Origin: a virus
Reading direction: 5' to 3' (one strand)
Virus record (IMG/VR): IMGVR_UViG_3300047378_001069
Coordinates: 1 to 23,164 of that record
DNA length: 23,164 nt
Under the pieces are notes generated by a model. The model was given only the letters and a program-made list of their open reading frames with translations, was not told the origin of the DNA and made no database searches. Of the stretch, positions 1 to 23,164 are shown piece by piece. Positions within the stretch are counted from its first letter, which is position 1. Every line of letters begins with the position of its first letter. Made by a program: the position numbers and the translations under genes.

Positions 1-696
1 GAGAATCAAAACATTGGTGATAAGATTGTAAAGAAGATTGCAGAAGTACAAGATAGAAAATCTATATTAGTTGCAGTACCAACGATAGAACAAGCTACTA
101 ATCTTGCAAAAAGAATACCACAAGCAGCAGTAGTTCATGGAGGAACTCCAAAAGCTGATAGAAAAAGAATCATAGAAGAATTTAGAAATCAACAGATACG
201 AGTTATTGTACAAGTTAATGTACTAACAGTTGGGTTTGATTATCCTGAATTAGATTGTTTGATTACAGGTAGACCAACTGCATCTATATCTTGGTGGTAT
301 CAGTTTGTTGGAAGAGGAACTCGTATTCACGAGGATAAAGAAGATTGTTTAGTTGTAGATTTTGTAGGTTCAGTAGAAAAGTTTGGTAAAGTAGAAGAAC
401 TATATTATAAAGATACTGGTGGTGAAGAATGGGAATTGTTTGGAGAAGGTAAAAAGCAACTTACAGGTATTCCAATGCACGAAATAGGAATCCACTTAGA
501 GGGTGGTATCAATCTTGCAGAAAAGAAAAACGAAGATGGTGATATAGAAAAGGTTTATATGACCTTTGGAAAGTATAAAGGTAAACCTGTTGCATCAATT
601 CCTCCTTATTATAGAAAATGGATGATAGATAATATCACATGGGGACCTTGGAATATAAAAATAAAAGAAGAAATAGAAAGATTACATAATTTATAA
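1..696 (+). CDS. SF2 DNA/RNA helicase, C-terminal part (5' end outside window)
   Basis: The frame is open from base 1, so this is the last 231 residues of a longer protein. Superfamily 2 helicase C-terminal (RecA2) motifs are visible: a SILVAVPT strand, an AAVVHGG segment, motif V as VLTVGFDYPELD (about residues 75-86) and motif VI as QFVGRGTR (about 101-108). These place it with the UvsW/RadD-like helicases that remodel branched DNA or RNA. The C-terminus (about residues 178-205) reads TFGKYKGKPVASIPPYYRKW, resembling the small DUF3820-type module also found fused to exonucleases. The ATPase lobe with Walker A/B is not in the window, so the exact family cannot be fixed. The stop is one base before the thymidylate synthase start, suggesting co-transcription. 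Confidence 0.85.
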   Translation, partial: ENQNIGDKIVKKIAEVQDRKSILVAVPTIEQATNLAKRIPQAAVVHGGTPKADRKRIIEEFRNQQIRVIVQVNVLTVGFDYPELDCLITGRPTASISWWYQFVGRGTRIHEDKEDCLVVDFVGSVEKFGKVEELYYKDTGGEEWELFGEGKKQLTGIPMHEIGIHLEGGINLAEKKNEDGDIEKVYMTFGKYKGKPVASIPPYYRKWMIDNITWGPWNIKIKEEIERLHNL

Positions 697-697
697 T

Positions 698-1585
698 ATG
701 AATAGTTTAGATTTACGATACCAAAAGATATTGCAAGATATCTTGATAGAAGGAAAGGAAAAGGGTGATAGAACTGGTACAGGTACTATATCTGTATTTG
801 GTAAACAAATCAGACATGATATGAGTGAAGGGTTTCCTTTACTAACCACAAAGAAGATGGCAGTTAAAACTATGATGACTGAATTGAAGTGGTTTCTAAA
901 AGGAGATACTAACATCAAATACTTAGTTGATAACAATTGTCATATTTGGGATGGTGATGCATATAAAGCATATCCACATAAAGATGAACTTACTCAAAAA
1001 GAGTTTATACAAAAAATAAAATCAGATTGGGAGTTTGCAAGAAACTATGGAGAACTTGGACCAATATATGGTAAACAATGGAGAGAATGGTCACCAGTTG
1101 CAGGTGAGATAAACAAAGGTGGTAAAGACCAAATCAAAGAATTAATTAAAAATATAAAAGAGAATCCTGATAGTAGAAGATTGATGGTATCAGCTTGGAA
1201 CGTAAGTGAGTTACCTCTAGTAGTTCTTCCTCCTTGTCATTATGGATTCCAATGTTATGTAAACGATGGTAAGTTATCTCTAATGTGGAATCAACGTTCA
1301 GTAGATACATTCTTAGGGTTACCATTTAATATTGCATCCTATGGTACTCTATTACTCTTATTATGTGAAGAAACAAATTTAGAACCAGGTGAACTGATTG
1401 GGAACTTAGGTGATACTCATTTATATAAAAATCATATTGAACAAGCAGAAGAACAGAGATTACGAAGTTCTTTTACATTACCAACAATAAAATTTTCTAA
1501 CGTAGATATTTTAAAAGGAGAATGGGATTATGAAATAGAAGGATACAAATATCACCCAACAATTAAAGCACCACTATCTAATTAA
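698..1585 (+). CDS. thyA: Thymidylate synthase (ThyA type)
   Basis: Converts dUMP to dTMP with methylenetetrahydrofolate, supplying thymidine for phage DNA synthesis. It is complete at 295 residues; E. coli ThyA has 264, and the extra length is mainly an insertion around residues 88-118. Visible signatures are DRTGTGT (24-30), the catalytic Cys180 in LPPCHYGFQCYV, the phosphate-binding pair in PDSRRLMVSAWN (158-168), QRSVDTFLGLPFNIASYG (199-216) and GDTHLYKNHIEQA (238-250). Asn211 in GLPFN matches the dUMP-selective Asn of thymidylate synthases. The homologous phage dCMP hydroxymethylases carry Asp there, so a hydroxymethylase is less likely. The ATG is two bases after the helicase stop, with no clear Shine-Dalgarno. 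Confidence 0.96.
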   Translation: MNSLDLRYQKILQDILIEGKEKGDRTGTGTISVFGKQIRHDMSEGFPLLTTKKMAVKTMMTELKWFLKGDTNIKYLVDNNCHIWDGDAYKAYPHKDELTQKEFIQKIKSDWEFARNYGELGPIYGKQWREWSPVAGEINKGGKDQIKELIKNIKENPDSRRLMVSAWNVSELPLVVLPPCHYGFQCYVNDGKLSLMWNQRSVDTFLGLPFNIASYGTLLLLLCEETNLEPGELIGNLGDTHLYKNHIEQAEEQRLRSSFTLPTIKFSNVDILKGEWDYEIEGYKYHPTIKAPLSN

Positions 1586-1588
1586 ATT

Positions 1589-1759
1589 ATGGAACATAAA
1601 AGATTATACGAGATTAAGATTCAACAACTCGAAAAAGAAAATAAAGAACTTAAATTAAAACTTGAAAAACAAGAATTAATTAAAGAAGGTTATAAGGAAG
1701 AAATTTCTAAGTGGAATAAAAAGTACAAGGATTTAAAAAAACAAATAACAAATGAATAG
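1589..1759 (+). CDS. Small charged coiled-coil protein, unknown function
   Basis: A 56-residue ORF starting MEHKRLYEIK and ending KQITNE, three bases after the thyA stop. It is almost entirely Lys/Glu-rich helix with leucines and isoleucines in heptad-like spacing (about residues 5-50), so a coiled coil is likely. No catalytic or metal-binding motif is visible. It fills the gap between thyA and the next ORF with the coding phase and AT-rich codon use of its neighbours, and its last bases overlap the next start. It could be a small regulator or structural helper, but nothing identifies a function. Confidence 0.6.
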   Translation: MEHKRLYEIKIQQLEKENKELKLKLEKQELIKEGYKEEISKWNKKYKDLKKQITNE

Positions 1760-1865
1760 AAAAGAAATTACCGCAGAGATAAGACGGTTGAAGCTAGTAA
1801 AACCACAAACACAAAAAATTAAATTAGAAATTCAAAAGTTACAACAAAAATTAGAAGATGATTAG
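1752..1865 (+). CDS. Very small basic helical ORF, unknown
   Basis: A 37-residue ORF (MNRKEITAEI... QKLEDD) whose ATG lies inside the end of the 56-residue ORF and whose stop lies inside the start of metK. It overlaps upstream by 8 bases and downstream by 8 bases. Such translational coupling and the tight packing are the main support. The product is a Lys/Gln-rich helix with no recognisable domain. It may be a genuine micro-protein, or a translation bridge between thyA and metK. Confidence is limited because ORFs of this size arise by chance in AT-rich DNA. Confidence 0.42.
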   Translation: MNRKEITAEIRRLKLVKPQTQKIKLEIQKLQQKLEDD

Positions 1866-2823
1866 AACAGCAGAATGTGTATCACCGATGCACCCAGATA
1901 AAATGTGTGATAGAATATCAGATAGATTATTAGATTTACATTTACAACAAGACCCAAACTCACGAGTAGCAATTGAAACTTGTGGAGGAATTGGTATGGT
2001 GTTTATCACAGGAGAAGTTACTTCAAATGCAGTAGTAACACGAGAAGATATCGTAAGAGCAGTACATAATATAACTACCGATGATACGATTGAAGTTATC
2101 ATTAACATCAACTCACAATCACCAGAGATTGCAAATGGAGTAGATACTGGTGGAGCAGGTGACCAAGGAATTATGATTGGTTATGCTTGTAGAGATAATG
2201 AAGAATTCTTACCACAAGAATATTATCTATCAAGAGAATTAAATAAATTCGTATTTGATAAATATCCATACGATGGTAAAACTCAAGTTACTATGAATGG
2301 TAACTCACTTAGAGTTGTTTGTTCATTCCAAAATGCACCAACCGAAATGTTAGAAGGTTTAGTGGGAGGATTCTTTAGTAGGTATCCACAATATCACATT
2401 GAAGCATTACATTGTAATCCTGCAGGTGATTGGAACATTGGTGGGTTTACTGCTGATGCTGGGTTAACTGGTAGAAAGTTAGCAGTAGATAATTACGGAC
2501 CGAGAGTTCCAATTGGTGGAGGAGCGTTTAGTGGGAAGGATGCTACGAAGGTAGATAGAAGTGCGGCATATATGGGAAGAAGAATCGCAGTAGATATCTT
2601 AGAAGAAAGACCAGAGGTACAGGAAGTGATGGTACAACTTGCATATGCAATTGGATATAATCAACCACTTCAAGCAACAGCAATTGTTGATGGAAAACAC
2701 GAATTTATTAAAGGATATGATTTATCTCCAAATGGAATTATTGATTTCCTAGAACTTAGAAATCCAATATTCGGTAGAACTGCTGGGTTTGGACACATGG
2801 GTGCAGGATTTAATTGGAAATAA
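1858..2823 (+). CDS. metK: S-adenosylmethionine synthetase (compact phage form)
   Basis: Makes S-adenosylmethionine from methionine and ATP. At 321 residues it is about 60 shorter than E. coli MetK (384) but keeps the active-site blocks. These are MHPDK (11-15; His12 and Asp14 match E. coli His14 and Asp16), GAGDQG (99-104), the lysine in GKTQVT (Lys141), NPAGDWNIGG (187-196), GLTGRK (202-207) and GGGAFSGKDATKVDRSAAY (220-238), which binds triphosphate and magnesium. Losses lie mainly in the loops before GAGDQG and before GKTQVT, and the C-terminal tail after FGHMG is short. Conserved catalytic residues argue for an active enzyme. A phage MetK could feed methylation or another SAM-dependent step, or offset host limitation. 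No methyltransferase is visible in this window. Confidence 0.95.
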   Translation: MIRTAECVSPMHPDKMCDRISDRLLDLHLQQDPNSRVAIETCGGIGMVFITGEVTSNAVVTREDIVRAVHNITTDDTIEVIININSQSPEIANGVDTGGAGDQGIMIGYACRDNEEFLPQEYYLSRELNKFVFDKYPYDGKTQVTMNGNSLRVVCSFQNAPTEMLEGLVGGFFSRYPQYHIEALHCNPAGDWNIGGFTADAGLTGRKLAVDNYGPRVPIGGGAFSGKDATKVDRSAAYMGRRIAVDILEERPEVQEVMVQLAYAIGYNQPLQATAIVDGKHEFIKGYDLSPNGIIDFLELRNPIFGRTAGFGHMGAGFNWK

Positions 2824-2824
2824 A

Positions 2825-2860
2825 TTAGGATATATGAAAATTTTTTCGTATATTTGTATA
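2825..2860 (+). promoter_or_regulatory. Bacteroidetes-type promoter, copy 1
   Basis: Immediately after the metK stop there is an AT-rich element with GGATATATG, a T-run, then CGTATATTTGTA. The -7 box TATATTTG (2849-2856) fits the Bacteroidetes consensus TAnnTTTG. The upstream TTAGGA (2825-2830) occupies the -33 position. The whole block is repeated almost exactly at 4685-4718. Transcription would begin a few bases after 2860 and give a leader of roughly a dozen bases before the nucleotidyltransferase ATG at 2875. Confidence 0.72.
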
Positions 2861-2874
2861 ACAAATAGCTTAAG

Positions 2875-3348
2875 ATGACTAAAAAATATAAAGTAATACT
2901 ATTGAGTGGAGGATTTGACCCTGTTCATAAAGGACACATTGAGTGTATTAATATAGCTAAAGAATTGGCAGATGAAGTTTGGATTGGATTAAACAACGAT
3001 AGTTGGTTACGAAGAAAAAAAGGTAAATCATTTATGAAAGAACAAGAAAGAGCTTTCATTATGAGTAATCTAAAAGCAGTTGATTGGGTTTATATAATGA
3101 ATCCAAAATCAAGTGGAGATAATACTGCAATTGACTTTATAGATGAAGCTAGATTAAAGTGGATAAAAGAAGGAAGAGGTGAGTTGAAAGGTAATATGGC
3201 ATTTGGTAATGGAGGAGATAGAACAGAAACAACTACACCAGAGAACGATGTATGTAACTCATATGGAATAGATTCAGTATGGGGATTGGGAGATAAAGTA
3301 CAATCTTCATCTTGGTTATTAGAAAAATATTTAAACATAGCAGAATAA
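2875..3348 (+). CDS. Cytidylyltransferase-like nucleotidyltransferase
   Basis: A 157-residue protein of the HxGH nucleotidyltransferase fold. The N-terminus VILLSGGFDPVHKGHIECI carries the nucleotide-binding motif HKGH at residues 18-21. Near the C-terminus are FGNGGDRTETTTPE (110-123) and KVQSSSWLL (141-149), matching the pattern in RfaE/HldE C-terminal and glycerol-3-phosphate cytidylyltransferase-like enzymes. Such enzymes transfer AMP or CMP onto a sugar phosphate, polyol phosphate or cofactor precursor. The substrate cannot be read from sequence. It is the first gene after promoter copy 1 and has no evident Shine-Dalgarno. Its stop overlaps the next ATG by one base (TAATG). Confidence 0.85.
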   Translation: MTKKYKVILLSGGFDPVHKGHIECINIAKELADEVWIGLNNDSWLRRKKGKSFMKEQERAFIMSNLKAVDWVYIMNPKSSGDNTAIDFIDEARLKWIKEGRGELKGNMAFGNGGDRTETTTPENDVCNSYGIDSVWGLGDKVQSSSWLLEKYLNIAE

Positions 3349-3575
3349 TGAATATAGAACAATTAGTAAAAGATTACCCAAACGATATGGAGTTGGGAAA
3401 GGTTGTACGAGATATATACAGAAAAGAAAAAGAATATCTCAACCAACATAAGGATATAAAAATATATGAATCACCTGATAAGGGAGAAACAATATATGAA
3501 AGACCTTTTGGTGGAGATGTAACGAAAAGAAAATTAGTAACAAAACAATTAAATTTATTCGATGAAATTAATTAA
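3348..3575 (+). CDS. Conserved-looking small phage protein, unknown function
   Basis: Seventy-five residues beginning MNIEQLVKDYPNDMEL. The frame is open further upstream, to an ATG at 3312, but that start would lie inside the nucleotidyltransferase. The ATG at 3348 overlaps its stop by one base and is the more natural coupled start. The protein is charged (many Lys, Glu, Asp), probably helical at the N-terminus, and lacks membrane segments or a signal peptide. It ends VTKQLNLFDEIN; the QLNLFDE tail looks like a short linear motif of the beta-clamp-binding type (Q-x-x-L-F), which is suggestive only. The last 14 bases overlap the deformylase gene. Confidence 0.72.
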   Translation: MNIEQLVKDYPNDMELGKVVRDIYRKEKEYLNQHKDIKIYESPDKGETIYERPFGGDVTKRKLVTKQLNLFDEIN

Positions 3576-4179
3576 AAAAGAAAGTCAATTAAAAACTCCA
3601 TTGATTGCAAAACCAATGAGTAAAAAAGAAATTGATTCAATATCAACAACTTTATTAACAGAACTTACTAAACATGGTGGTATCGGACTATCTGCAAATC
3701 AAATTGGTTTGGATATTCGTGCGTGTGTAATTAATGTTAAAGAACCATTGGTATTAATTAATCCACGAGTTATTGATGTATCTAAGGAAACTGTTGCGTA
3801 TGTAGAGCAATGTTTATCATTAGATAAAACCATGAGAAAACCAGTTAAAACAATAAGACATAAATCATTTAAACTAGAATGTGATAATTTAGGTGTAGTA
3901 GAATTTGGACCAGATAAGGTAGATTCTGAATGGAAAGATTCTAATGAATTCTTTTCAGATGAAGGATTATTAGAGTGTGTTTGTGCTCAACATGAGATAG
4001 ACCACCTTAATGGAGTTCTTATAACAGATTCTTCAAGAAGATATACTACTACAATTATTGCACCAAAAAAATATGGTAGAAACGAAAGGGTAATGGTAAA
4101 ATTACCAGATGGTTCTACTGAATTTATGAAATACAAAAAAGCAGAACCACTACTTTCAGTTGGTTGTGAAATCTTATAA
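3562..4179 (+). CDS. def: Peptide deformylase
   Basis: Removes the formyl group from N-terminal formyl-methionine of nascent proteins. All three family motifs are present: GIGLSANQ (40-47; family GxGLAAxQ), EQCLS (82-86; family EGCLS, with Cys84 as metal ligand) and QHEIDHLNG (143-151; metal ligands His144 and His148, catalytic Glu145). It should be an active metalloenzyme. Unlike the very short cyanophage deformylases, this 205-residue protein has about 45 extra residues after the core (from about 160, SRRYTTTIIAPKKYGRNERV to the C-terminus), of unknown role. The start at 3562 overlaps the upstream gene by 14 bases. Known phage deformylases are thought to support translation during infection of photosynthetic or marine hosts. 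Confidence 0.94.
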   Translation: MKLIKKESQLKTPLIAKPMSKKEIDSISTTLLTELTKHGGIGLSANQIGLDIRACVINVKEPLVLINPRVIDVSKETVAYVEQCLSLDKTMRKPVKTIRHKSFKLECDNLGVVEFGPDKVDSEWKDSNEFFSDEGLLECVCAQHEIDHLNGVLITDSSRRYTTTIIAPKKYGRNERVMVKLPDGSTEFMKYKKAEPLLSVGCEIL

Positions 4180-4192
4180 TTTAAACTAAAAC

Positions 4193-4453
4193 ATGGGAAA
4201 ACTTATATTTACATATACAGATAAAGACTACATAGAACATAATAGAGAAGTAAGTAAGATTGAATTAGATGTACCAGATGATATGGATATTCACGAATTC
4301 AAAGTAGTTTGTGTTAGGCTTGCATCTACAATCGGTTATAGTAATAAATCAATAACAAAGGCGTTTGGAGATTTAATCTACGGAGATGATAATCCAAATA
4401 CTATAAAAGAACTACTACATGAACTCAACGTCATTACAAATAAAAAAACTTAA
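4193..4453 (+). CDS. Small hypothetical phage protein
   Basis: Eighty-six residues starting MGKLIFTYTDKDYIEHNREV, 13 bases after the deformylase stop. The first half looks like beta strands (LIFTYTDKDY, VSKIELDVPDD). The second half looks helical and contains RLASTIGYSNKSITKAFGDLIYG, which could be a small helix-turn-helix-like or helical bundle segment. There is no signal peptide or membrane segment. I do not recognise the family. The tight spacing and the overlap with the next ORF indicate membership of the same operon. Confidence 0.75.
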   Translation: MGKLIFTYTDKDYIEHNREVSKIELDVPDDMDIHEFKVVCVRLASTIGYSNKSITKAFGDLIYGDDNPNTIKELLHELNVITNKKT

Positions 4454-4667
4454 CGATAGGTTGTTAACACAAAATGTGATTATACAAACACTTATAAATA
4501 TTTTGATTGAAAGCGAGTTAGTTACAGAAAAAGAATTACAAACAAAGATTGAAGATAACCTTGATGATATTCAAGATATAATAAATTCAATTGAGATAAC
4601 AACCTCAGATGATGAAGATGATTCAGTTATGAGCTCCATGTATTTTGGACCACATGGAGAAGCCTAA
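4419..4667 (+). CDS. Small acidic hypothetical protein
   Basis: Eighty-two residues starting MNSTSLQIKKLNDRLLTQNV, overlapping the previous gene by 35 bases in another frame. The first 60 residues are leucine/isoleucine-rich and probably form a helical coiled coil. The C-terminus is strongly acidic (TTSDDEDDSV) and ends MYFGPHGEA. Similar layouts, a short helical stretch followed by an acidic tail, are common among unassigned T4-like phage proteins, but I cannot assign one here. The next 81 bases contain a promoter and no gene. Confidence 0.7.
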   Translation: MNSTSLQIKKLNDRLLTQNVIIQTLINILIESELVTEKELQTKIEDNLDDIQDIINSIEITTSDDEDDSVMSSMYFGPHGEA

Positions 4668-4684
4668 AAATTTATTACATTTTA

Positions 4685-4718: not shown

Positions 4719-4748
4719 GAATAATATGTTTAATTAAAGGGAGACCTT

Positions 4749-6381: not shown

Positions 6382-6393
6382 TAAAAAATATTA

Positions 6394-8094
6394 ATGAGTT
6401 ATATATTAGGAATTAGTTGTGGATATCATGACTCAGCGGCATCTTTAATAAAAGATGGTATAGTATTAGGAGCGTGTGAAGAAGAAAGATTCACAGGTAT
6501 AAAACACGATTCTTCATTTCCACATAATACGATTGATTGGTTATTTAAAAAGTATTCTATAACCAAAGAAGATTTAGATTCTATTTGTTTCTATGAAGTT
6601 CCTTTTGAAAAATTAGATAGAATAGAAACCTCTACAAAAAAAGGTGGAGTATTAAAATACTTTAACAGAAAAAGTATTATTAGTAATAACAAAACTGCAT
6701 ATAAAGAATTAATGTTAGATATTGATTCTTATACTGGTAGTAAAACAAATGTTGTGTTTACCGAACATCACCTATCTCATGCAGCGTATTCATATTATAC
6801 TTCTCCATACAATAACGCTATTGTAGTTTCAGTTGATGGGGTTGGTGAATGGGAAACAACTACAATATACGAGGGAACAAAAAACAAACTTAAAAAATTA
6901 GATTCAATAAAATTTCCACATTCACTTGGAATGTTCTATTCTGCATTTACTGCATTCTTGGGATTTAAACCAAATGAAGGGGAATATAAAATGATGGGAT
7001 TGGCACCGTATGGTGATTCATCTAGGTATATAGATAAATTCGATTCAATTATATCAGGTAAAGAGGGTAACTTTAAATTAAACATGGATTTATTTACATA
7101 TGAATATTCAGATACACATATGTTTAATGAAAAACTTGGAATGTTACTTGAACTACCAAACAGATTACCAGAAGAACCACTTACACAAGACCATAAAGAT
7201 TTAGCGGCATCTGTACAAGCTATATATGAAAAATATTTTTTTAATTTATTGGAAAAAGCTTTTTCGTTATCATCATCTCGTAACTTATGTTTAAGTGGAG
7301 GTTGTGCGTATAATGGAACTGCAAATGGAAAGATATTAGAAAAAACTTCTTATAATAATTTATGGATACCACCTGCACCATCTGATTCTGGTTCATCAAT
7401 TGGATGTGCTTTACATTATTACTATGATAATAATGTATCATTGAGAAAGATAAACACCAATCCATATTTAGGTCCAGAGTATTCAAAGGAATCTATAAAA
7501 TCTACTATTGATAAATTTAAGAAATATATCTATGGAGAATATGTAGTTAATCCTCAAATAATAAAAATTATATCTAAAGAAATTACTGATGGAAATATAA
7601 TTGGTTGGTTTGAGGGTAGAATGGAGTTTGGTGCAAGAGCACTAGGTAATCGTTCTATATTAGCAAATCCAAGAGACCCTCAAATGAAATCTCGTTTAAA
7701 TATGATGATTAAAAAAAGAGAAGGGTTTAGACCATTTGCTCCTATTGTACATAGAGAAAAACAGATTAAATATTTTAAATATAATAGATTAGTTCCATAT
7801 ATGAATCAAGTAGTAAAGGTTAAGAAAGAATTCGTTGATAAACTTCCTGCTATAACACACATTGATAATTCTGCAAGAATACAGAGTTTAGATTCTAAAG
7901 ATAATCCAAGAATATACTCTTTATTAACTCAACTTGAAATAGATAATGAGTATCCAATTGTTATCAATACCTCTTTCAATTTAAAAGACCAAACAATGGT
8001 TCTAACACCAGAAGATGCAATAAAAACATTCCTTGATTGTGAAATGGACACTCTTGTACTTGGAAATTATATTATTAGAAAAACAATTATTTAA
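6394..8094 (+). CDS. NodU/TobZ-family carbamoyltransferase
   Basis: A complete 566-residue O-carbamoyltransferase, close to the usual family length (about 570). The N-terminal ASKHA/Kae1-like domain shows ILGISCGYHDSAASLI (4-19), EERFTG (30-35), HHLSHAAYSYY (125-135, His metal site), VSVDGVGEW (145-153), GEYKMMGLAPYG (196-207) and LSGGCAYNG (about 300-308). The C-terminal domain shows MEFGARALGNRSILANPRD and GFRPFAPIV, then NTSFN. The family makes carbamoyl-adenylate from carbamoyl phosphate and ATP and passes the carbamoyl to a hydroxyl on a sugar, antibiotic or nucleotide. The phage target is unknown; options are a hydroxymethylated base, a virion glycan or a host metabolite. It is 12 bases after the sigma gene and probably co-transcribed with it. 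A terminator follows about 100 bases later. Confidence 0.93.
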   Translation: MSYILGISCGYHDSAASLIKDGIVLGACEEERFTGIKHDSSFPHNTIDWLFKKYSITKEDLDSICFYEVPFEKLDRIETSTKKGGVLKYFNRKSIISNNKTAYKELMLDIDSYTGSKTNVVFTEHHLSHAAYSYYTSPYNNAIVVSVDGVGEWETTTIYEGTKNKLKKLDSIKFPHSLGMFYSAFTAFLGFKPNEGEYKMMGLAPYGDSSRYIDKFDSIISGKEGNFKLNMDLFTYEYSDTHMFNEKLGMLLELPNRLPEEPLTQDHKDLAASVQAIYEKYFFNLLEKAFSLSSSRNLCLSGGCAYNGTANGKILEKTSYNNLWIPPAPSDSGSSIGCALHYYYDNNVSLRKINTNPYLGPEYSKESIKSTIDKFKKYIYGEYVVNPQIIKIISKEITDGNIIGWFEGRMEFGARALGNRSILANPRDPQMKSRLNMMIKKREGFRPFAPIVHREKQIKYFKYNRLVPYMNQVVKVKKEFVDKLPAITHIDNSARIQSLDSKDNPRIYSLLTQLEIDNEYPIVINTSFNLKDQTMVLTPEDAIKTFLDCEMDTLVLGNYIIRKTII

Positions 8095-11570: not shown

Positions 11571-12005
11571 ATGGCATTTATACTTGGTAAAAAAACACTT
11601 AAAGATTCCGAAGAATTTGATTCTTATGCATATGGAATTACACTACCAATACAAGGTGGTAATACAGGATTTTTTTCACAAGCATTTACATCACTTGAGC
11701 AAGCAAAAGCTAATCTTAAAAATTTGTTATTAACTGCAAAGGGTGAAAGAATAATGCAGCCAGACTTTGGTTCAGGACTAAGGTCATTATTATTCGAACA
11801 AATGGATGATACTGAATTTAAAAAAAACATCCAACAAACTATTTTAAAAAGTGTAGAGTATTGGTTACCTTACATTAGAATAGAAGCAATTGATGTAGAT
11901 ATGGCAAGTGAATTAAAAGATAAAAATCAAGTAAATTTAAATTTGCAATTTACAGTTGGAAACGATATTGATTTACAAGAAATAACATTGGTAGTACAGG
12001 AATAA
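11571..12005 (+). CDS. Baseplate wedge protein gp25 (GPW/gp25 family)
   Basis: 144 residues, the usual length for T4 gp25 (132) and its contractile-injection relatives. The family signature is clear at about residues 46-76: ANLKNLLLTAKGERIMQPDF then GSGLRSLLFEQ, where the Glu of GER and the PxFG turn are highly conserved. gp25 forms part of the wedge ring and helps start sheath polymerisation. The C-terminus (NLQFTVGNDIDLQEITLVVQE) is the expected beta strand. A good ribosome site GGGGAGTGAG precedes the ATG. gp6 follows after 4 bases, the same order as in many T4-like phages. Confidence 0.93.
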   Translation: MAFILGKKTLKDSEEFDSYAYGITLPIQGGNTGFFSQAFTSLEQAKANLKNLLLTAKGERIMQPDFGSGLRSLLFEQMDDTEFKKNIQQTILKSVEYWLPYIRIEAIDVDMASELKDKNQVNLNLQFTVGNDIDLQEITLVVQE

Positions 12006-12009: not shown

Positions 12010-14022
12010 ATGGCATTAAACTCAGCTAATTTTAAAAGTAACAATGGAAGAGATATAAAATATCTAAGTAAAGATTTTGCGTCTTTTAGAAGTAACTTAA
12101 TTGAATACTCTAAAACTTATTTTCCTAAAACATATTCTGATTTTAACGAAGCTTCTCCTGGTATGATGTTTATAGAAATGGCATCTTATCTTGGAGATAT
12201 ATTGTCATACTATACAGATGATTCATTGAAAGAATCATTAATGTTATATGCAGAAGATAAACAAAATGTAATTGCTCTTTCAAACTACTTAGGATATAAA
12301 CCAAAAGTTACTTCACCTGCAATCGTAACAATTGCGGTGTATCAATTAGCACCTTCTATTGGTAGTGGAGAAGATAACAGACCAGATTCTGATTATTACT
12401 TAAGAATAAGAGAAGGTATGGTTGTAGAAGCAGCTAAAACAAATGTTCAGTTTAGAACAACCGAACTTGTTGATTTTAATGATGCAACTGATAGAGAAAT
12501 TACGGTTTATACTGATTCAGCGGGAGAAGCAACACAATACCTTATTAAAAAATATGTAAAAGCAATTTCAGCTACATTAAAAACCGTAACTAAAACATTT
12601 AGTTCACCTCAACAATTTTCTAAAATAAATCTTGCAGATAAAAATGTAATTGATGTATTTGATGTACGAGATGCAAATGGTGGTAAGTGGTATCAAGTTC
12701 CATACTTAGCACAAGAAATGGTATATGTTGATTATCCAGTTTCAGAGCAAACTGATAAAGATTTAGCTCAATTTAAAGATTCTGTATCAAATATATTAAA
12801 AGTATTGAAAACTTCAAAAAGATATGTAACTAAGATTAATCAAGATAATACAACTACACTAGTATTTGGTGGTGGTAATTCAACAAATGATGAAGTATTA
12901 ATACCAAGTACAAAAAATGTTGGATTGGGATTAAATTCATCCATAGATAAAATGAGTTCTACGTTTGACCCTGCTAATTTCTTAAGAACATCATCTTATG
13001 GACAAGCACCTTCAAATACAACTCTTACAATTTCTTATCTAGTGGGTGGTGGTGTATCTTCTAATGTTTCTAAGGGAGAACTAACATCAATAAAAAGAAT
13101 TGAATTCGATGATGATGTAAAAACATTTTCACAAAACGAATCTACTTTATATAATAAAATGAAAGCTTCGGTAGCAGTTGATAATGAAACTCCAGCAACT
13201 GGTGGTAGGGGTGAAGAAACTATTGATGAGATTAGAGAAAACGCATTAGCTAACTTTGGTTCACAAGGTAGAGCAGTAACAAGAAAAGATTATCAAGTTA
13301 GAGCATTGGCATTGCCTCCTAAATATGGTGGAATCGCAAAGGCATATTGTTCACCAGATGGTCAATTGGATAATAACTCACCTGGTTCATTATTAAAAGA
13401 TACTGATTCAATTGAAGAACTAATGGGTGTGGTTAACATGGTTAAAGACCAAAACCTATCAGATGCAGAAACACGAGAAGAAGTTAAAAGATTATTAAAA
13501 AGTAAAAAGGGTAGTCCTGGTGAAAAAAATAATCCATTTGCAATTAACTTATATATTCTTGGATATAACTCAGATAAAAATTTATCTATATTGAATAGAG
13601 CAGTTAAAGAAAATCTGAAAACATATATTGGAGAATATAGAATGTTAACAGATGGAATTAATATTATTGATGGGTATGTTATAAACATAGGACTTGATTT
13701 TGAAATAAGAGTTTATGGTGGATATAATAAAAGAGAAGTACTTGCAAAATGTATATCAGAATTAAAGCAATATTTTAATATAGATAATTGGACGTTTAAT
13801 ATGCCAATTAATATATCTGCAATAGAAATTTTACTAGCAAGTATTGAGGGAGTACAATCTGTACCAAAATGTGAAGTTACTAATAAGTGTTTAGGAAAAT
13901 ACTCAGAACATTCATATGATATACAAGCAGCAACAAAGGGTAAAATGGTGTATCCATCAGTAGACCCTTCTGTATTTGAGGTTAAGTTTCCAAATAAAGA
14001 TTTAAAAGGGAGAGTAGTATAA
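12010..14022 (+). CDS. Baseplate wedge protein gp6 (gpJ-like)
   Basis: 670 residues, like T4 gp6 (660), the wedge subunit that forms the inner iris of the baseplate. The N-terminus contains RDIKYLSKDFASFRSNLIEY and SPGMMFIEMASYLGDILSYY (about 50-69), typical of gp6/gpJ. The mid region RENALANFGSQGRAVTRKDY (about 418-437) is the conserved block linking the domains. The C-terminal part (DGYVINIGLDFEIRVYGGYN; INISAIEILLASIEGVQSV) matches the gpJ-like end that contacts gp25. It lies 4 bases after gp25 and its stop overlaps the next ATG by one base. No truncation is seen. Confidence 0.92.
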   Translation: MALNSANFKSNNGRDIKYLSKDFASFRSNLIEYSKTYFPKTYSDFNEASPGMMFIEMASYLGDILSYYTDDSLKESLMLYAEDKQNVIALSNYLGYKPKVTSPAIVTIAVYQLAPSIGSGEDNRPDSDYYLRIREGMVVEAAKTNVQFRTTELVDFNDATDREITVYTDSAGEATQYLIKKYVKAISATLKTVTKTFSSPQQFSKINLADKNVIDVFDVRDANGGKWYQVPYLAQEMVYVDYPVSEQTDKDLAQFKDSVSNILKVLKTSKRYVTKINQDNTTTLVFGGGNSTNDEVLIPSTKNVGLGLNSSIDKMSSTFDPANFLRTSSYGQAPSNTTLTISYLVGGGVSSNVSKGELTSIKRIEFDDDVKTFSQNESTLYNKMKASVAVDNETPATGGRGEETIDEIRENALANFGSQGRAVTRKDYQVRALALPPKYGGIAKAYCSPDGQLDNNSPGSLLKDTDSIEELMGVVNMVKDQNLSDAETREEVKRLLKSKKGSPGEKNNPFAINLYILGYNSDKNLSILNRAVKENLKTYIGEYRMLTDGINIIDGYVINIGLDFEIRVYGGYNKREVLAKCISELKQYFNIDNWTFNMPINISAIEILLASIEGVQSVPKCEVTNKCLGKYSEHSYDIQAATKGKMVYPSVDPSVFEVKFPNKDLKGRVV

Positions 14023-16392: not shown

Positions 16393-18630
16393 ATGGCTTT
16401 AGAAACATTTAAAGAAATAGTAGAGAGAAAAGGATATCTCGTAGAAAATGAAGATAGAAAAATTTTCGAAAAGGAAATTAAGAAATCTAACTTCGGACTT
16501 GGTGTGTCTGATATGATTGAATTCATTTTATATGATTCAAATGATAATCAACTACCACAAGGAGAGGATGCAAAACTTGTTAGATATATTCATATAGATG
16601 ATAAAAACATTAATGATTATTTTTTAATAACAAGAAATGAAGAAACTAAAAAGACAAATGATGCATCTGAGTTTATAATTGATTTAGAAAGATTAATTAG
16701 AGAAGCTGGATATTCTAATGGTATATTCAAGACTCAAATAACATTACTAAACAGAAGAATCGGTTCAGAAGAAGGAGAAACTGATAAATTATGGATACAT
16801 GAAATATCACCAACACGAACCGAAATAAGAGTTGTTCCTTTAAAAAATACAAATAAACCTAATGAAGATTTACTAAGAAGGTATGGGTTATTCACCGATG
16901 AAGGAAACTTTAGAGATGATACCATTTATTATGTTAGAAACTTTATTGATAGTATTGATATCTTTAAGGTTGTTGATAGCTTTATAAGAAGTAAGGGTAG
17001 AATTCGTGATGGAAGACGATATCAAAAATTAGTTCAACAAGAATTTAAAGTAGGTTCATTTGATAATTTGTTAAATGATATAAAAGCTAGATATCTTGAG
17101 TCTATGGATTATTTCATAGTTGGAAAAGATTGGGATATAACATCAAACACTTATGGTAAATCAATTAATAATCCTGATTTATTAGAATTAACAATTTCAA
17201 AAATAAAAAGAGTAGCAGAAACTGCTATACGAAATTCTGTTGAGTATTATTTACCAAAACGTAAAATACAAAATAGTATTGAATTAACCGCAGATGAACA
17301 AATTACGTTTGATAAGGTTAAGAAAATATTAAAAACTATTAAAGCAAATCAAAAATTTCCAAGTACCATACCATCTGAAGTAGGAGGTATAGTTAGAGGT
17401 TGTACAGATAAAGAAGCACTTAACTATAATCCACGAGCAAAAGAAAACGATGGTAGTTGTAGATATAAAGAAACAGAAGTAGCAGCTGCTGTTGTAGAGG
17501 GTTGTACTGATAAGAGTGCAGTAAACTATAATCAGTATGCAAATAAAGATGATGGTAGTTGTAAATATCAAGAAGTGGTTGAAGATTTTGCTGATTTAGG
17601 AGGAGGACTTGATACCGATACAGAGGTTGTAGTTGACCCTCCACCACCTCCACCACCAAAACCAGTGTACAAATATACAACAAAAATATACTATGTTTGG
17701 TCAGAAACTGGTTCAATAAATTATACCGATAGAACTGGAGGAAAGGTTGTATCATCTGGTATTGAATACGATGCTCTAAAAATAACTTTTAGAGATGATG
17801 GACCTCCGAAGTTTGTTAATGATGTAAGAGAAATACCAAAAATAAAAATTACACCACCACTTGTTGTTGAATATAGAGTTCAGAACCAAAGTAGGGTAAC
17901 AAGACAAAGACCAGAATTCTTAGAAAGAAAGAGATTTAATGATATTCACCCATTTGGTGATAGAGAAGGATATAACAGACGTAACAACCGTTTACAAAAG
18001 TATCCAAATGTAATTGAAGAGTTTGAAGAAATATTTGTGGGTTCTTCTTTATCTTTTTCTTATAAGAATAAGTTAAATCAACAAAAAACAAGTTCTACAA
18101 TAGAACCGAATGATTCGTTAATAATATGTGCAGTTGAAAATTCAATATCAAGTGTACCTGGTCTTAAAGTAACACGAGTAGGAACCTGTGGAGGAACATA
18201 TCCACAAGTAATTACCGTACCTAAACCAAAATATAAATGTAATAATTCACGAGCGATAAACTTTGGTGAAGTTGGTGTGTGTAAATATGCACCAAAACCA
18301 GCTGACCCAGTAATACCATTTGTTCCACCAACTCCACCACCACGAAAAAGGTGTCTTGACCCAAATGCAGATAATTATCAGCAATATGGGACTTGTACTT
18401 ATCCAATTTTTGTTGATGTTGTGGATAAACCAATTCAAATAGTTCAAAATACACCACCTAGAATCACTGGTGGAAATTCTGGCGGTTTTGGTGGTTCAAG
18501 AGAAGTTGAGGAGATATTAGATGCAATGGGAGGAAATTTTGATGGAGCAATTGAATTTAATAACGGAAGAAATAACAGAAGTAATAATTCAACGTTGAGA
18601 ATGGGTGGGTATAATGCCAACTTTTTCTAA
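16393..18630 (+). CDS. Large late protein with Cys-rich GCTD/DGSC repeats
   Basis: 745 residues. The first 320 form a globular baseplate-like part, including IEFILYDSNDNQLPQG, an EFIIDLERLIREAGYSNGIF segment and LWIHEISPTRTEIRVVP, blocks I associate with wedge-region proteins of T4-like phages. Then come two repeats of the form GC-D--A-NYN--A--DGSC-Y (residues 336-358 and 370-392), a polyproline linker (PPPPPPPKP, about 417-425), a beta-rich region, and two degenerate repeats near the end (616-632 and 654-670). The tail is Gly/Asn-rich. Similar Cys repeats are frequent in secreted Bacteroidetes proteins, probably as small disulfide or metal-stabilised loops. The likely role is a tail/baseplate surface protein. 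The function is not established. Confidence 0.75.
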   Translation: MALETFKEIVERKGYLVENEDRKIFEKEIKKSNFGLGVSDMIEFILYDSNDNQLPQGEDAKLVRYIHIDDKNINDYFLITRNEETKKTNDASEFIIDLERLIREAGYSNGIFKTQITLLNRRIGSEEGETDKLWIHEISPTRTEIRVVPLKNTNKPNEDLLRRYGLFTDEGNFRDDTIYYVRNFIDSIDIFKVVDSFIRSKGRIRDGRRYQKLVQQEFKVGSFDNLLNDIKARYLESMDYFIVGKDWDITSNTYGKSINNPDLLELTISKIKRVAETAIRNSVEYYLPKRKIQNSIELTADEQITFDKVKKILKTIKANQKFPSTIPSEVGGIVRGCTDKEALNYNPRAKENDGSCRYKETEVAAAVVEGCTDKSAVNYNQYANKDDGSCKYQEVVEDFADLGGGLDTDTEVVVDPPPPPPPKPVYKYTTKIYYVWSETGSINYTDRTGGKVVSSGIEYDALKITFRDDGPPKFVNDVREIPKIKITPPLVVEYRVQNQSRVTRQRPEFLERKRFNDIHPFGDREGYNRRNNRLQKYPNVIEEFEEIFVGSSLSFSYKNKLNQQKTSSTIEPNDSLIICAVENSISSVPGLKVTRVGTCGGTYPQVITVPKPKYKCNNSRAINFGEVGVCKYAPKPADPVIPFVPPTPPPRKRCLDPNADNYQQYGTCTYPIFVDVVDKPIQIVQNTPPRITGGNSGGFGGSREVEEILDAMGGNFDGAIEFNNGRNNRSNNSTLRMGGYNANFF
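17398..17568 (+). repeat. Two Cys-rich GCTD...DGSC peptide repeats
   Basis: Two in-frame copies of a 23-residue unit at 17398-17466 and 17500-17568. Both read GCTDK-A-NYN--A---DGSC-Y with two cysteines 19 residues apart. They are separated by an Ala/Val/Glu-rich linker of 11 residues. Confidence 0.85.
18238..18402 (+). repeat. Two degenerate copies of the Cys repeat
   Basis: Shortened units at 18238-18288 (CNNSRAINFGEVGVCKY) and 18352-18402 (CLDPNADNYQQYGTCTY) keep the two Cys, the A-N[YF] core and the final C-Y. They lack the leading Gly and the DDG segment. A proline-rich linker lies between them. Confidence 0.7.
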
Positions 18631-18651
18631 AAGATACAAAAGAAGATAATA

Positions 18652-18672
18652 ACTATATATTTATAGTAGAAA
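18652..18672 (+). promoter_or_regulatory. Candidate late promoter 3 (TATTTATA box)
   Basis: TATTTATA at 18658-18665 within AACTATATATTTATAGTAG, 23 bases before the ATG at 18689. CTATA/TATAG arms flank the centre. The 58-base gap (18631-18688) otherwise holds only the leader. The element matches those at 8681 and 10944. Confidence 0.6.
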
Positions 18673-18688
18673 TATTGTTGGGATATAA

Positions 18689-21600
18689 ATGAGAAACAGA
18701 AGAGAATTTAATTACGATGATTTCAGAGGTTATGAGGATAACTTTGGAAGAACTAATGGGGAAAATCCTTTCGGATATGAACCAGAGGTACTTCGTCCTA
18801 TTGGTAACGGTGGAGGCGGAGGTGGAGGTAGAGTATCAAGACCTACTCCACCTATAATTGTACCGAAACGTCCTGTGCCAGAAATAAGTAAACCTCGTTT
18901 CGTAAAACCGATACTTCCACCACCACCACCAATAAAACCTGATTTGCCACCAAATCCAATTATCCCAATAAAAATACCACCTCGTGTTTTTGTAAAAGGT
19001 GGGTGTATGGATTCGAAGGCAACTAACTTTGATAGAAGAGCAACTTACGATAATGGTAAATGTAGATATCCAAAACCAGAGATTAAACCTGTGGTAAAGG
19101 ATAAAAATGCACCAGTTACTGTGACCATAGCGAGTGATAGAGGACCAGCTGAAGTTAAAGTAAATGGTAAATCTGTGGGTACAACAAATGGTTCAGGTGA
19201 TTTTCATTCCAAAGTTTTAAATTTTACAGAAAAAGAATTACTTAGTAGAAAGACAATAACAGTAGAAAAAGCAGGATTTACATCAAGAGATGAGTGGAGA
19301 ATATCTTCTAAACAAAAAACTTTATATAAAGATGTAAAACCAGTTATTGATATTGTACAACCTGATTTACCACCACCAATTCGTACTAACCCACAACCAA
19401 CTAGAGGTAATGTAAGAAATAACACTCCTACAATCACTGCAACTACTGATGGTAGTGGTCAGTTTAGAGATTACATGGATGTGGACTTCCTTGACCCAAT
19501 AACTGAACAATTTGGTAGAAAAGGAGAAAATATCAACTTCGGAGGAAACAATCCCTTTGAACGTAATTTTAGGGGAGGAATTAATCCCAATTTTAATAGG
19601 CTATTAAAAAGAAGAGCTCCTAAACCATCATCTCCAAAAATTAATTTTAACAATCGTCTTGGTATTGAGCCACTATTTTCGAGACCTGTTAAGGGAAAGT
19701 CTTTACCAAAACCAGCACCACCAAAACTATCATTAGGTACAGTTGGATTTAATTATTTCGAAATTGTATTAGAGAGAAAAATAAATGGTAAATGGGTACA
19801 ACAACCGAATTCAAATGCTAAAATTGCAGATGTATCTATAAGACCTAAATCACACGCACTACGATGTGGATTTAGTTTAAGAAAATCATCTGTTGAAATT
19901 ATAGAACCACCTATCATTGAAGAAAGCTATTCAGTTAGCATAATTGGTGATGTACCAACGGATGATACCATTCTTTGGAAAACTAATTATGGACAAGTTG
20001 GGGGTGTATTAGATGATGATGATATTGTAACATTTAAAATTGAAAGACAAGAAGGAGACCCTATACCAAGTATTTCATTTTATGCAAATGGTATAACTGA
20101 TTTTACACATAGAGGAGAATTTCAATATTCATCTAATGGTAAAAAGGTTACTTCAAGAAAGGGATTGGAAACAACAATTCAACTTGTAGGTGGTCAAACA
20201 GATATACAAGTTCAAGTATTTAAAAATCCTATTGCAAGTGTACCTACACAACCAGCAGTTAAATTAAATAGAAGTAGTGTTAAGTTAAATCTAGCGGATA
20301 GAAACTCTGTTAAGATATCATACGAGTCAATTGATGCAGATAGTTTATTATATATCCTTGGTAAGAACAAAAAAACAATACCATTACGAGGTACTATTAC
20401 ATTATCACCAAGTGATTTTCCCAATGGTGCAGGAAATTATACATTATATGTTCAGCCTGTTTCAAAACGAGGAGGAAGTGGTGAAACTCAAAAGGTAGTA
20501 ATTGCAGTAGAAAGTAAAGCATATTTACCTGGTCCAGATATTACTCATATAAACTATCCACAATTAATTAAAGGAGCGGATTTTAAAGGATATGATGCAG
20601 ATTTTAATATATCTTGGCAATCTATTAATACGAACTATGTTGAAATATATCTTGATACTCCAAGAAGAGAATCTTTCTTAGGTAAATTCGAACCACAAGG
20701 AGTTTCTCAACTTAATATACAAGATATTATTAGAAAAGGTAGAAGATTTCAAACTTTAAGAAATAATAGAGATTTATTACAATTTAAAATATTACTAATT
20801 CCTTATAATACAGAAGGTGATTCTAAAACAAAAGGTAAAGTTGAATCAATAAATATTACTTTTGATAAGGGAGATTTAACACTTCGTAGAGGAAGAGTTG
20901 TTGGTGATATAAGAAATGCATTTGTTAGTGAATTTGAAGATAAAGGACTTGATGAACATACATCTCCATTTTTAACACACTATTTGCACCTAGGTGATGG
21001 TGATAATAGGTTAATTGGTACATGGGGAATCGATGAAACAACATTTTCAGATTTTAGAATTAATCCAGCAACTAACAAAAAGGAATTATATGGTGAGGTA
21101 CAGAAATCATTAGTTTTAAAACTATATGACCCATTACCACGAAATATAAATCCTAATGATAAAATTTGGATATCCAAAATACAATCAATTCCATTAATTG
21201 ATAGAATAACAATTACAGATGATATAGTTAACAACTGTACTCCATTAACTCCTAACTTTGAATTAGATGTTACTGATACAATTGGATATCAAATAATGGA
21301 TGATTTAATAACAAGTGGTTCTACCTCATCTACCGATGTTGTAAATCAATTTGTATCATCTAGTAATTTTTCATTAGATAATTTAAATATAGAATTTGTA
21401 AGTCAATCTTCAATAATAAATGAAGTTGGTACTGGACTAATATTAGAACAAACTGGTGATGAAGATTATAATTGGAAAGAGTTTATTAAATATTCATCTG
21501 CAGATGAGAGAGTTCAAAATTTTTACTATAAAGTAAAATTATTAGAATCATATCAATCTAAATATGATATTGTAAATTCACTAACTTCATCAATTGCAAC

Positions 21601-23164
21601 AACTCAAGAAGCTAAAAATATACAATTTAAAATAGGTGAAGTAAGAAGGGGATTTGATTCTTTTGAAAAATATCTATATAACGAATCAGGTTCATTAACG
21701 TATCCTGGAGCGGGAGAGAATACACTTTCATCATCAGATGACTCATCTACTATAAGTTGGTTTGCTGGAATATTAAACTCAGCTCAATCATTTGATTATA
21801 ATAACACATCTCGATTATCATTTAATTTACCAAAACATATTAAAGATGATGAAAACAATTCTGATTTCATTTTATTCTCTGATATGATTGGACAACACTT
21901 TGATGTTATATACACACATATCAAAGCAATATCTAAAAGTAATAGAATTGAAAATACACATGAATATGGTATAGATGATACTATGTTATATCATATGTTA
22001 GAATCCTTGGGATGGAATGCCGATATGGGTGTTTCTGGACAAGCACTTTGGGAATATGCATTTGGTAAAGATAAGGATGGTAATAAAACAACTTCCTTAA
22101 GTGGTAAGGATAGACAAAATGAAATATGGAGAAGATTATTAAACAATCTACCATATTTGTATAAACATAAAGGTACAAAACGAGCAATATCCGCAGCGTT
22201 AAGTTGTTATGGTGTTCCTGCTTCATTACTGACTGTGATGGAATTTGGAGGACCTAGTGACCCGGATGGAGATACTCCAACCAAATTCACATATGATGAT
22301 AGAACTGCTTCAATATTACTAAGTGGTTCTGCAGCTATTACTTTACCTTGGAAAGAACACACATCAGTATTTAGTGATGATTATCCTAATGCAGTTGAAC
22401 TAAGAATAAACTCGGAACAAAGACAAGACCAAGAGATAGTGAGTACCGATGGGTGGTCATTGAATTTAATCGCAAATACAGGTTCTCTTGCAGAAGTACA
22501 ATTTAAAATTAGTGGAAGTAATACTATACTTTCATCTTCAACTGGAACTGGTTCTTTATTTAATGATGAATATACTCAAATAGTAGTACAAAAAGTAGTA
22601 TCTGGTTCATTTGATGTATTTGATGTATATGCACAGGAATCATTTCAAGGAAGAATTAGAACTAAACTTAGTTCAAGTTTAGAAATACGTTCAGGAACAA
22701 ATTCATGGAAGAGTGGTAGTTTACTAACGTTAGGTGGTACTAACTTAACTGCTTCGGTTGATGAGTATAGATTATGGAGAACTCCATTATCACAATCAAG
22801 AATTGATAATCATACATTATTACCAGATGCAGTAGATGGAAATCATATATCTGCATCATCTACTGATTTATTATTTAGAAATGATTATGAGTATCCTAAA
22901 AACAGATACTCAAGTACCTCTATTAAAAACGTATCAATAATACAAACATATGTTACTGAATCGATTGCTTCTAATTTTACAGATATTAGTTCATATCCAT
23001 TTCAATATAAATCATATGATAGAGAAGTAACTGCAGTTGTACCATCAACGGGTAATAGTCTTGGAAATAAAGTTAGATTTGAAACACAAACATTAGTATC
23101 GGATTTAAATTATAGAAGTAGAGCTACTAAAAAATCATTTGACCAATCTCCTGTTGATTCAAAC
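18689..23164 (+). CDS. Giant multidomain baseplate/tail protein (3' end outside window)
   Basis: An open frame of 1492 codons without a stop to the window edge. The N-terminus (1-100) is Gly- and Pro-rich (a run of Gly codons, then PPPPPP), followed by one Cys repeat (105-127) and a PEGA-like beta domain (about 138-195: PAEVKVNGKSVGTT, then TITVEKAGF). Several Ig-like beta stretches follow. Around residues 1090-1190, GIDDTMLYHMLESLGW then DRQNEIWRRLLNNLPYLYKHKGTKRAI resembles the core of P2 gpI-type tail proteins. Residues about 1200-1370 look like a LamG/concanavalin-like lectin domain (strands, then VDEYRLWRTPLSQSRI). Its place after gp6 and its size suggest the role of T4 gp7 or an enlarged wedge/receptor-contact protein. 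Its start has no clear Shine-Dalgarno but lies behind a late-promoter candidate. Confidence 0.82.
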   Translation, partial: MRNRREFNYDDFRGYEDNFGRTNGENPFGYEPEVLRPIGNGGGGGGGRVSRPTPPIIVPKRPVPEISKPRFVKPILPPPPPIKPDLPPNPIIPIKIPPRVFVKGGCMDSKATNFDRRATYDNGKCRYPKPEIKPVVKDKNAPVTVTIASDRGPAEVKVNGKSVGTTNGSGDFHSKVLNFTEKELLSRKTITVEKAGFTSRDEWRISSKQKTLYKDVKPVIDIVQPDLPPPIRTNPQPTRGNVRNNTPTITATTDGSGQFRDYMDVDFLDPITEQFGRKGENINFGGNNPFERNFRGGINPNFNRLLKRRAPKPSSPKINFNNRLGIEPLFSRPVKGKSLPKPAPPKLSLGTVGFNYFEIVLERKINGKWVQQPNSNAKIADVSIRPKSHALRCGFSLRKSSVEIIEPPIIEESYSVSIIGDVPTDDTILWKTNYGQVGGVLDDDDIVTFKIERQEGDPIPSISFYANGITDFTHRGEFQYSSNGKKVTSRKGLETTIQLVGGQTDIQVQVFKNPIASVPTQPAVKLNRSSVKLNLADRNSVKISYESIDADSLLYILGKNKKTIPLRGTITLSPSDFPNGAGNYTLYVQPVSKRGGSGETQKVVIAVESKAYLPGPDITHINYPQLIKGADFKGYDADFNISWQSINTNYVEIYLDTPRRESFLGKFEPQGVSQLNIQDIIRKGRRFQTLRNNRDLLQFKILLIPYNTEGDSKTKGKVESINITFDKGDLTLRRGRVVGDIRNAFVSEFEDKGLDEHTSPFLTHYLHLGDGDNRLIGTWGIDETTFSDFRINPATNKKELYGEVQKSLVLKLYDPLPRNINPNDKIWISKIQSIPLIDRITITDDIVNNCTPLTPNFELDVTDTIGYQIMDDLITSGSTSSTDVVNQFVSSSNFSLDNLNIEFVSQSSIINEVGTGLILEQTGDEDYNWKEFIKYSSADERVQNFYYKVKLLESYQSKYDIVNSLTSSIATTQEAKNIQFKIGEVRRGFDSFEKYLYNESGSLTYPGAGENTLSSSDDSSTISWFAGILNSAQSFDYNNTSRLSFNLPKHIKDDENNSDFILFSDMIGQHFDVIYTHIKAISKSNRIENTHEYGIDDTMLYHMLESLGWNADMGVSGQALWEYAFGKDKDGNKTTSLSGKDRQNEIWRRLLNNLPYLYKHKGTKRAISAALSCYGVPASLLTVMEFGGPSDPDGDTPTKFTYDDRTASILLSGSAAITLPWKEHTSVFSDDYPNAVELRINSEQRQDQEIVSTDGWSLNLIANTGSLAEVQFKISGSNTILSSSTGTGSLFNDEYTQIVVQKVVSGSFDVFDVYAQESFQGRIRTKLSSSLEIRSGTNSWKSGSLLTLGGTNLTASVDEYRLWRTPLSQSRIDNHTLLPDAVDGNHISASSTDLLFRNDYEYPKNRYSSTSIKNVSIIQTYVTESIASNFTDISSYPFQYKSYDREVTAVVPSTGNSLGNKVRFETQTLVSDLNYRSRATKKSFDQSPVDSN
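19001..19069 (+). repeat. Fifth Cys repeat, in the giant protein
   Basis: One full-length unit GCMDSKATNFDRRATYDNGKC followed by RY, at residues 105-127 of the giant protein, with the same Cys spacing as the two complete copies in the upstream gene. It follows a proline-rich linker, as do the upstream copies. Confidence 0.8.

Follow-up and report, generated by a model that had tools for sequence, protein, structure and literature searches.

GATC Is Missing from a Predicted T4-like Phage Fragment and Rare across Its Lineage

Gene Content and GATC Absence in the Window

The IMG/VR virus record IMGVR_UViG_3300047378_001069, analyzed here over its full length of 23,164 bases (the window), has no GATC site anywhere between positions 1 and 23,164. 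Judged by its genes, the window is a fragment of an uncultured T4-like phage, and all recognizable genes are on the + strand. A DNA helicase gene (1..696; phrog_16, E = 4.9e-36) has its 5' end cut by the fragment edge and is followed by genes for thymidylate synthase (698..1585; phrog_160, E = 4.5e-105), a metK-like S-adenosylmethionine synthetase (1858..2823), a peptide deformylase-like protein (3562..4179; phrog_2890, E = 2.4e-20), and a Nol-like carbamoyltransferase (6394..8094; phrog_1601, E = 2.4e-116). The synthetase exceeds the cut-offs of PF02773, PF00438, and PF02772, with a short match in the central domain, and its score of 242.2 bits to TIGR01034 is under the cut-off of 309.4. Farther downstream are two baseplate wedge genes. 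The first (11571..12005), which we take to be gp25-like, matches two families labeled as baseplate wedge subunits (phrog_261, E = 6.7e-20; phrog_43, E = 5.6e-14). The second (12010..14022; phrog_219, E = 5.9e-21), presumably gp6-like, provided the query for relatives and for the tree. At the DNA level, the whole window had no match in the phage collection, and tRNA and Rfam scans of the window found nothing. The isolates closest in the gp6-like protein are Microcystis phage Mel-JY01 (41.7% identity) and Flavobacterium phage immuto (37.7%).

Absence of GATC is far from what composition predicts. At 31% GC, the window would be expected to hold 63.7 sites by base composition or, under a second-order Markov model, 85.2. 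An earlier note on this DNA had claimed the absence and put the expectation at about 60, and both statements hold. Shuffles of synonymous codons in 20 window open reading frames (ORFs) yielded 64.4 ± 5.3 sites, with 50 in the lowest of 500 shuffles. The observed zero is thus far lower than a null preserving codons and composition allows. When all 256 tetramers were counted against the codon-shuffled expectation, a check the note had proposed, GATC was the strongest outlier rather than near expectation (z = −12.1; TTTT is next at −6.3).

The depletion is specific to GATC, both in the window and in 52 GATC-free relatives described below. Among other palindromes of the window, GTAC (77 observed, 80 expected), TGCA (111, 107), and AATT (300, 311) are close to expectation, and loss of palindromes in general is rejected as an explanation. 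Of the palindromes that the note had listed as present, GATATC occurs 20 times and GAATTC 12 times, and CATG, CTAG, and TCGA, as well as ACGT, are mildly low (observed/expected of 0.54–0.65). CCGG, GGCC, and GCGC, each with few counts, are at 0.44–0.48.

Codon choice reveals how the site is avoided. As the note had described, aspartate is usually encoded by GAT except before C, where all 22 codons are GAC (for example GACCAA at 2161..2166, + strand), compared with nine of 440 elsewhere (Fisher P = 9e-31). Seven of the eight positions it gave for such codons are exact, and the remaining one, GACCCT, is at 17635..17640 (+ strand) instead of starting at 17,634. Avoidance extends beyond aspartate to all three coding frames. 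None of 55 isoleucine codons after G is ATC, all 16 serine codons after GA are AGY and none is TCN, and none of 32 glycine or arginine codons before TC is GGA, AGA, or CGA. GACC, an escape form of GATC, is doubled (43 vs. 21.4 expected). Because 1,268 positions in the window are one substitution away from GATC, lasting absence would need continuing selection.

GATC across Related Phages

IMG/VR was scanned with the gp6-like protein of the window and the best 80 of at least 597 loci were kept, some of which are near-copies of one another and do not represent independent cases. GATC is absent from 52 of the 80 loci, which span 606,715 bases in which 2,125 sites are expected. The ratio of observed to expected sites is above zero but less than 0.1 in 18 loci, 0.1–0.3 in six (L015–L018, L049, and L064), and at least 0.3 in four (L036, L040, L042, and L058). 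Combined, the loci have 180 sites in 981,606 bases, compared with 3,464 expected. When the 52 loci without a site are pooled, GATC is the lowest of the 256 tetramers, followed by CATG at 0.38. A second scan, with another gp6 protein, added 19 new contigs, with 13 lacking GATC, five below 0.1, and one at 0.1–0.3.

Long relatives show the same pattern. The 168,635 bases of record G022 have no GATC where approximately 622 are expected. The site is likewise absent from G001 (234 expected), G004 (221), G010 (138), G017 (129), the 20 of 29.6 kb read of G002 (79), and 185,350 of the 190,001 bases of Mel-JY01 (348). It is nearly absent from G021 (one of 242 expected), G014 (1 of 147), and G020 (10 of 169). 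Partly relaxed records are G008 (22 of 157, in 40 of 41 kb) and G007 (19 of 85, in 20 of 21.7 kb), and G006 (36 of 350), G019 (25 of 71), and G015 (58 of 127) also have sites.

A tree was built from 83 gp6 proteins, those of the window, the 80 loci, Mel-JY01, and immuto. Of these proteins, 72 belong to sequences with a ratio below 0.1, six to sequences at 0.1–0.3, and five to sequences above, and six changes of class are needed on the tree. Low GATC is therefore the common state, with several relaxed branches, and is retained among gp6 homologs down to 59% identity. GATC absence is a trait of the lineage and not of a single fragment, which lends strong support to the note's proposal of long-term selection. 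In relaxed branches, the sequence found opposite GATC in kin is most often, or jointly most often, GACC in 11 of 11 pairwise comparisons, a one-step synonymous change of aspartate. Its share varies from four of five sites to one of six (e.g., 5 of 12 for L017 vs. L013 and 1 of 6 for L049 vs. L043).

These counts also bear on whether the absence reflects codon bias, low GC content, or use of a GATC enzyme to cut the library. The window is indeed GC-poor and CATG, CTAG, TCGA, and ACGT are mildly low as well. But codon shuffles still produce 64.4 sites, many contigs agree, with up to 168.6 kb free of GATC, a cut library would be expected to yield short contigs, and GAC before C is an evolved signature. 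The shuffles and multi-contig counts refute an artefact or compositional origin, to which we assign a negligible probability.

Genes for DNA Modification and Cleavage

Modification could protect a phage that retains GATC. A D12 adenine methylase was searched for in 65 first-scan records, leaving out 15 others that are all shorter than 7 kb, and was found only in G015. The product of this gene (L082:1402-2253) is, by homology, a predicted Dam/DpnM-like methylase; among solved structures it best matches the DpnII methylase 2dpm (E = 3.1e-36), and it passes the curated Dam model TIGR00571 (182.8 bits; cut-off of 114.85). In the window, Mel-JY01, and immuto, the D12 search found nothing. The window also had no detectable N6/N4 or phage-Dam methylase and no PF00145 cytosine methylase. 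None of 23 IMG/VR records had an N6/N4 methylase over cut-off or a phage-Dam, and PF05869 (phage Dam) was found in none of 25 records. An S-adenosylmethionine synthetase gene like that of the window is also present in three other clade records, G004, G008, and G010, and the D12 and N6/N4 methylase searches found nothing in them.

Immuto is a related T4-like phage. Among the matches listed for the large terminase of G022, the closest are those of Mel-JY01 (55.7% identity), immuto (55.0%), and an uncultured 484 kb phage (45.8%), with all others at or below 36.1%. Unlike the clade, immuto retains GATC (444 of 500 expected, in three stretches covering 137,635 of 160,410 bases) and carries base-modification genes. 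It has QueC, a QueD-type PTPS, FolE, and QueF by Pfam, a radical-SAM protein annotated as QueE, and DpdA by annotation only, a set that we take to be a pathway for 7-deazaguanine in DNA. This base shields DNA against many restriction enzymes. No homolog of the six genes was found in 178 overlapping sequences, among them clade loci, methylase contigs, and Mel-JY01. Thymidylate synthase, included in the same search, turned up in five. Hence two GATC-bearing relatives carry modification genes, a methylase in G015 and the 7-deazaguanine set in immuto.

The earlier note had suggested that the phage DNA is not protected by modification at this site. The suggestion fits the window, where searches for D12, N6/N4, and phage-Dam methylases came up empty, and the lack of Que/Dpd homologs, with the qualifications that the window and records are fragments and that Mel-JY01 has N6/N4 matches. 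For the records searched, a lack of modification genes is partly supported.

A phage might also lose GATC to avoid cutting itself, if its own GATC-cutting nuclease degraded host DNA. T4 EndoII, which attacks host DNA, is a GIY-YIG enzyme, and a GIY-YIG gene, kin of one beside the Mel-JY01 primase, is present in 10 of 14 long clade records (some partial). However, GIY-YIG genes also occur in GATC-bearing G015 and G006, and nuclease families of matching specificity were not detected: PF04556 (DpnII) in none of 22 records and PF02976 (MutH/Sau3AI family) in none of 25. PF06044 (DpnI) was found in none of 14, although this search matched no control genome either and shows little. For G022, the PADLOC families listed (25 of 27 for one part and 2 of 2 for the other) include no plain type II nuclease, although single ORFs had matches to models of type I, type IIG, and type IV. 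The G022 scans covered 126 of 136 listed ORFs (90–900 residues; ten of the longer ones were left out), and for part A3 the Pfam results are those listed for 25 of 67 families. We consider self-avoidance very unlikely.

Predicted Hosts

Promoters provide an indication of host. The motif TTG-N17-22-TAnnTTTG, presumably the vegetative promoter of Bacteroidota, occurs 13 times upstream of ORFs in G022 (0.7 expected) and 17 times in Mel-JY01 (0.9 expected). With slightly longer upstream regions, G022 has 14 occurrences, compared with 3 on the wrong strand and 2 at twelve wrong spacings, and Mel-JY01 has 19, compared with 1 and 9, respectively. Because of these promoters and the terminase kinship, the clade looks like phages of Bacteroidota, which are its likely hosts on the basis of sequence.

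Mel-JY01 (L123 and L125-L127; PP395634.1) was deposited with Microcystis elabens as its host, yet has Bacteroidota-type promoters. Its terminase and that of a Flavobacterium phage are from the two isolates closest to G022. The true host may be a Bacteroidota companion in the culture. Counts of Shine-Dalgarno motifs across records are too uneven to name a host. Over the first 10 kb of the head gene region of G006 (L083, G006:1-20000), Shine-Dalgarno-like motifs precede 10 of 11 ORFs; they are absent in L084 (0 of 18) and L087 (0 of 16), and G021 is without the G006 pattern. G006 also has a match to the bS21 gene of Mel-JY01.

The predicted hosts are relevant to mismatch repair as a source of selection. 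Phage phiX174, which at 5.4 kb is much smaller than G022, is similarly devoid of GATC, and added sites lower its mutation rate, according to one report (PMC5014478). GATC would then be avoided to escape Dam/MutHLS mismatch repair or cutting by MutH, as proposed for phiX174 and enterobacterial phages. To our knowledge, Dam/MutH repair is essentially gammaproteobacterial, whereas the clade looks like phages of Bacteroidota. We view escape from mismatch repair as highly improbable for this lineage.

Probable Evasion of GATC-Specific Restriction

We suggest, with a probability of roughly 0.75, that this uncultured T4-like clade, probably of Bacteroidota, evades GATC-specific restriction endonucleases by having no site for them. 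Candidate enzymes are those of the MboI/DpnII/Sau3AI type and possibly also of the DpnI type. Any GATC that arose would make the genome vulnerable to cutting and be removed by purifying selection. Removal would be mostly synonymous, with GAC replacing GAT before C, ATT or ATA replacing ATC after G, and AGY replacing TCN after GA. The earlier note had placed a GATC-cutting nuclease in the host range. Such a nuclease is the best explanation for the selection, but the enzyme itself is inferred and could sit in hosts, in competing phages, or in both.

Published accounts describe GATC restriction in the phylum. An active MboI-like GATC restriction-modification system is reported in Prevotella intermedia (PMC5608340), and another study (PMC8099122) names relatives, in flavobacteria, of a GATC methylase and of a MutH-like protein. 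Methylated GATC is reported in some uncultured Caudovirales in a third (PMC9516812), suggesting that not every seawater phage deletes the site. A first scan of genome contigs with the G015 methylase found no relative, and a second, with alignment A1, found 37 loci, none titled as a member of Bacteroidota.

Several observations weigh against evasion of restriction in Bacteroidota. As regards hosts, the promoter motif is absent from the eight upstream regions of the window and from the 42 kb of immuto tested, and is rare in 78 other loci of the first scan, with 3 occurrences (10 on the wrong strand) in 254 upstream regions. The GATC methylase of Flavobacterium psychrophilum, among its most prevalent, is reported to be an orphan without an MboI-type nuclease (PMC11837570). 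As regards modification, the expectation that every GATC-bearing relative has a methylase was not borne out, with no D12, N6/N4, or phage-Dam methylase detected in G006, G007, G008, or G019 and no D12 in L018, L036, L042, L049, or L064 (all shorter than 10 kb). Mel-JY01, without a single GATC, has four N6/N4 methylase matches over cut-off. Other flavobacterial phages, five in all, vary. GATC is depleted in P12002L (21 of 98 expected) and P2559S (10 of 48) despite several annotated methylases and a Mom-like gene in the former and an annotated DNA methylase in the latter. Phage phi14:2 retains GATC (115 of 149, in 50 of 100 kb), phi38:1 has 74 of 152 (in 50 of 72.5 kb), and P12024L, with an annotated hydroxymethylcytosine glucosyltransferase and an oxygenase, has 79 of 85. 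Partial depletion (0.17–0.26) is also seen in four of nine contigs that carry close Dam-like methylases, and of 53 IMG/VR loci with Dam relatives, L198 (6 of 72) and L225 (1 of 42), whose methylases are distant (29% and 25% identical, respectively), are near zero. Any relation of GATC content to modification is thin, a tendency at most.

Putative Methylase-Nuclease Cassettes Carried by Phages

Phages themselves could be a source of GATC-cutting nucleases. The methylase gene of G015 adjoins an ORF of 201 residues with a conserved D...E-x-K stretch, a 60% identical homolog of which is located beside the methylase in L138. A relative with 26% identity is beside the Dam gene of Synechococcus phage S-WAM2 (KU686211.1 44280-45705). 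Nine distinct contigs encode a methylase with 43% or more identity to that of G015, and each has an ORF of 192–243 residues directly upstream of it. By eye, these ORFs have a PD-(D/E)XK-like stretch and are of several different-looking types, and one exceeds the cut-off of the Pfam EcoO109I family. A structural model of the G015-type protein, of low confidence (pLDDT 54.8), has the helix-strand order of the PD-(D/E)XK fold. The pairs, which occur on phage contigs L135, L138, and L176-L182, look like putative restriction-modification cassettes that are carried by phages and that could select against GATC in competitors.

If so, the selecting nucleases could be largely phage-borne, with a Dam-like methylase and a small PD-(D/E)XK nuclease of rival phages cutting unmethylated GATC in other phages or in host DNA, and with GATC-free phages being immune. 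The conserved gene arrangement in nine of nine contigs, the EcoO109I match, the fold order, and the S-WAM2 relative are consistent with this. However, specificity for GATC follows from the methylase family only, and D12 methylases include other specificities. A search with the low-confidence model yielded no fold match at E ≤ 0.001, and no such upstream ORF is seen by eye in contigs with more distant methylases (L183, L186, and L191). Of the nine contigs, only G015 is clearly in the clade (8 of 14 ORFs with clade matches, compared with zero to two ORFs in the others). None of the nine is free of GATC, and the five without strong depletion are at 0.43–1.02. We consider a largely phage-borne source improbable. 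That warfare among phages drove GATC elimination in part is a tentative proposal, and also an unlikely one. It would involve swappable cassettes, in phages of the same hosts, that pair a Dam-like methylase with one of several PD-(D/E)XK-like nucleases destroying unmethylated GATC DNA, to which one lineage responded by deleting the site and others by acquiring a methylase or 7-deazaguanine.

Comparison with Known Systems

The reading that we prefer, evasion of GATC-specific restriction, has precedent, and elimination of restriction sites is already a known phenomenon. Staphylococcus phage K (140 kb) is reported to have eliminated GATC, which was read as evasion of Sau3A (PMC6532042). The clade resembles phage K in being composed of large phages from which GATC sites are gone and for which evasion of a GATC-cutting enzyme is proposed. 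It differs in having an unrelated host, in that GATC loss extends over a varied group of uncultured phages, some of whose sub-lineages are relaxed, and in that the nuclease is predicted. Likewise, a survey reports GATC as under-represented in all 46 phages whose hosts encode a matching Type IIM enzyme (PMC6286503). Avoidance is common to both, but in the clade it is complete over as much as 168.6 kb and seen on a tree, with the host enzyme being predicted. What is new, as far as the literature was searched, is this clade, on which nothing was found, the completeness of avoidance across 168.6 kb, and how the clade differs from modified relatives.

A count of zero for approximately 622 expected sites in 168.6 kb is a very strong imprint for a defense system and one that can be traced on a tree with relaxed branches. 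It predicts that GATC-cutting activity is common around this uncultured phage lineage, for which GATC absence can serve as a compositional marker. It also makes it possible to compare three potential responses to a single threat, namely site deletion, methylation, and base hypermodification.

Depletion of Other Sites

Some relatives are depleted of additional tetramers. Mel-JY01 is also without CTAG (0 of 152 expected) and has few CCAG (33 of 186). GTAC is strongly depleted in L015/G006 (36 of 232) and L024 (12 of 54), suggesting a second restriction pressure. In GATC-bearing L121/G019, TCGA is depleted (3 of 27).

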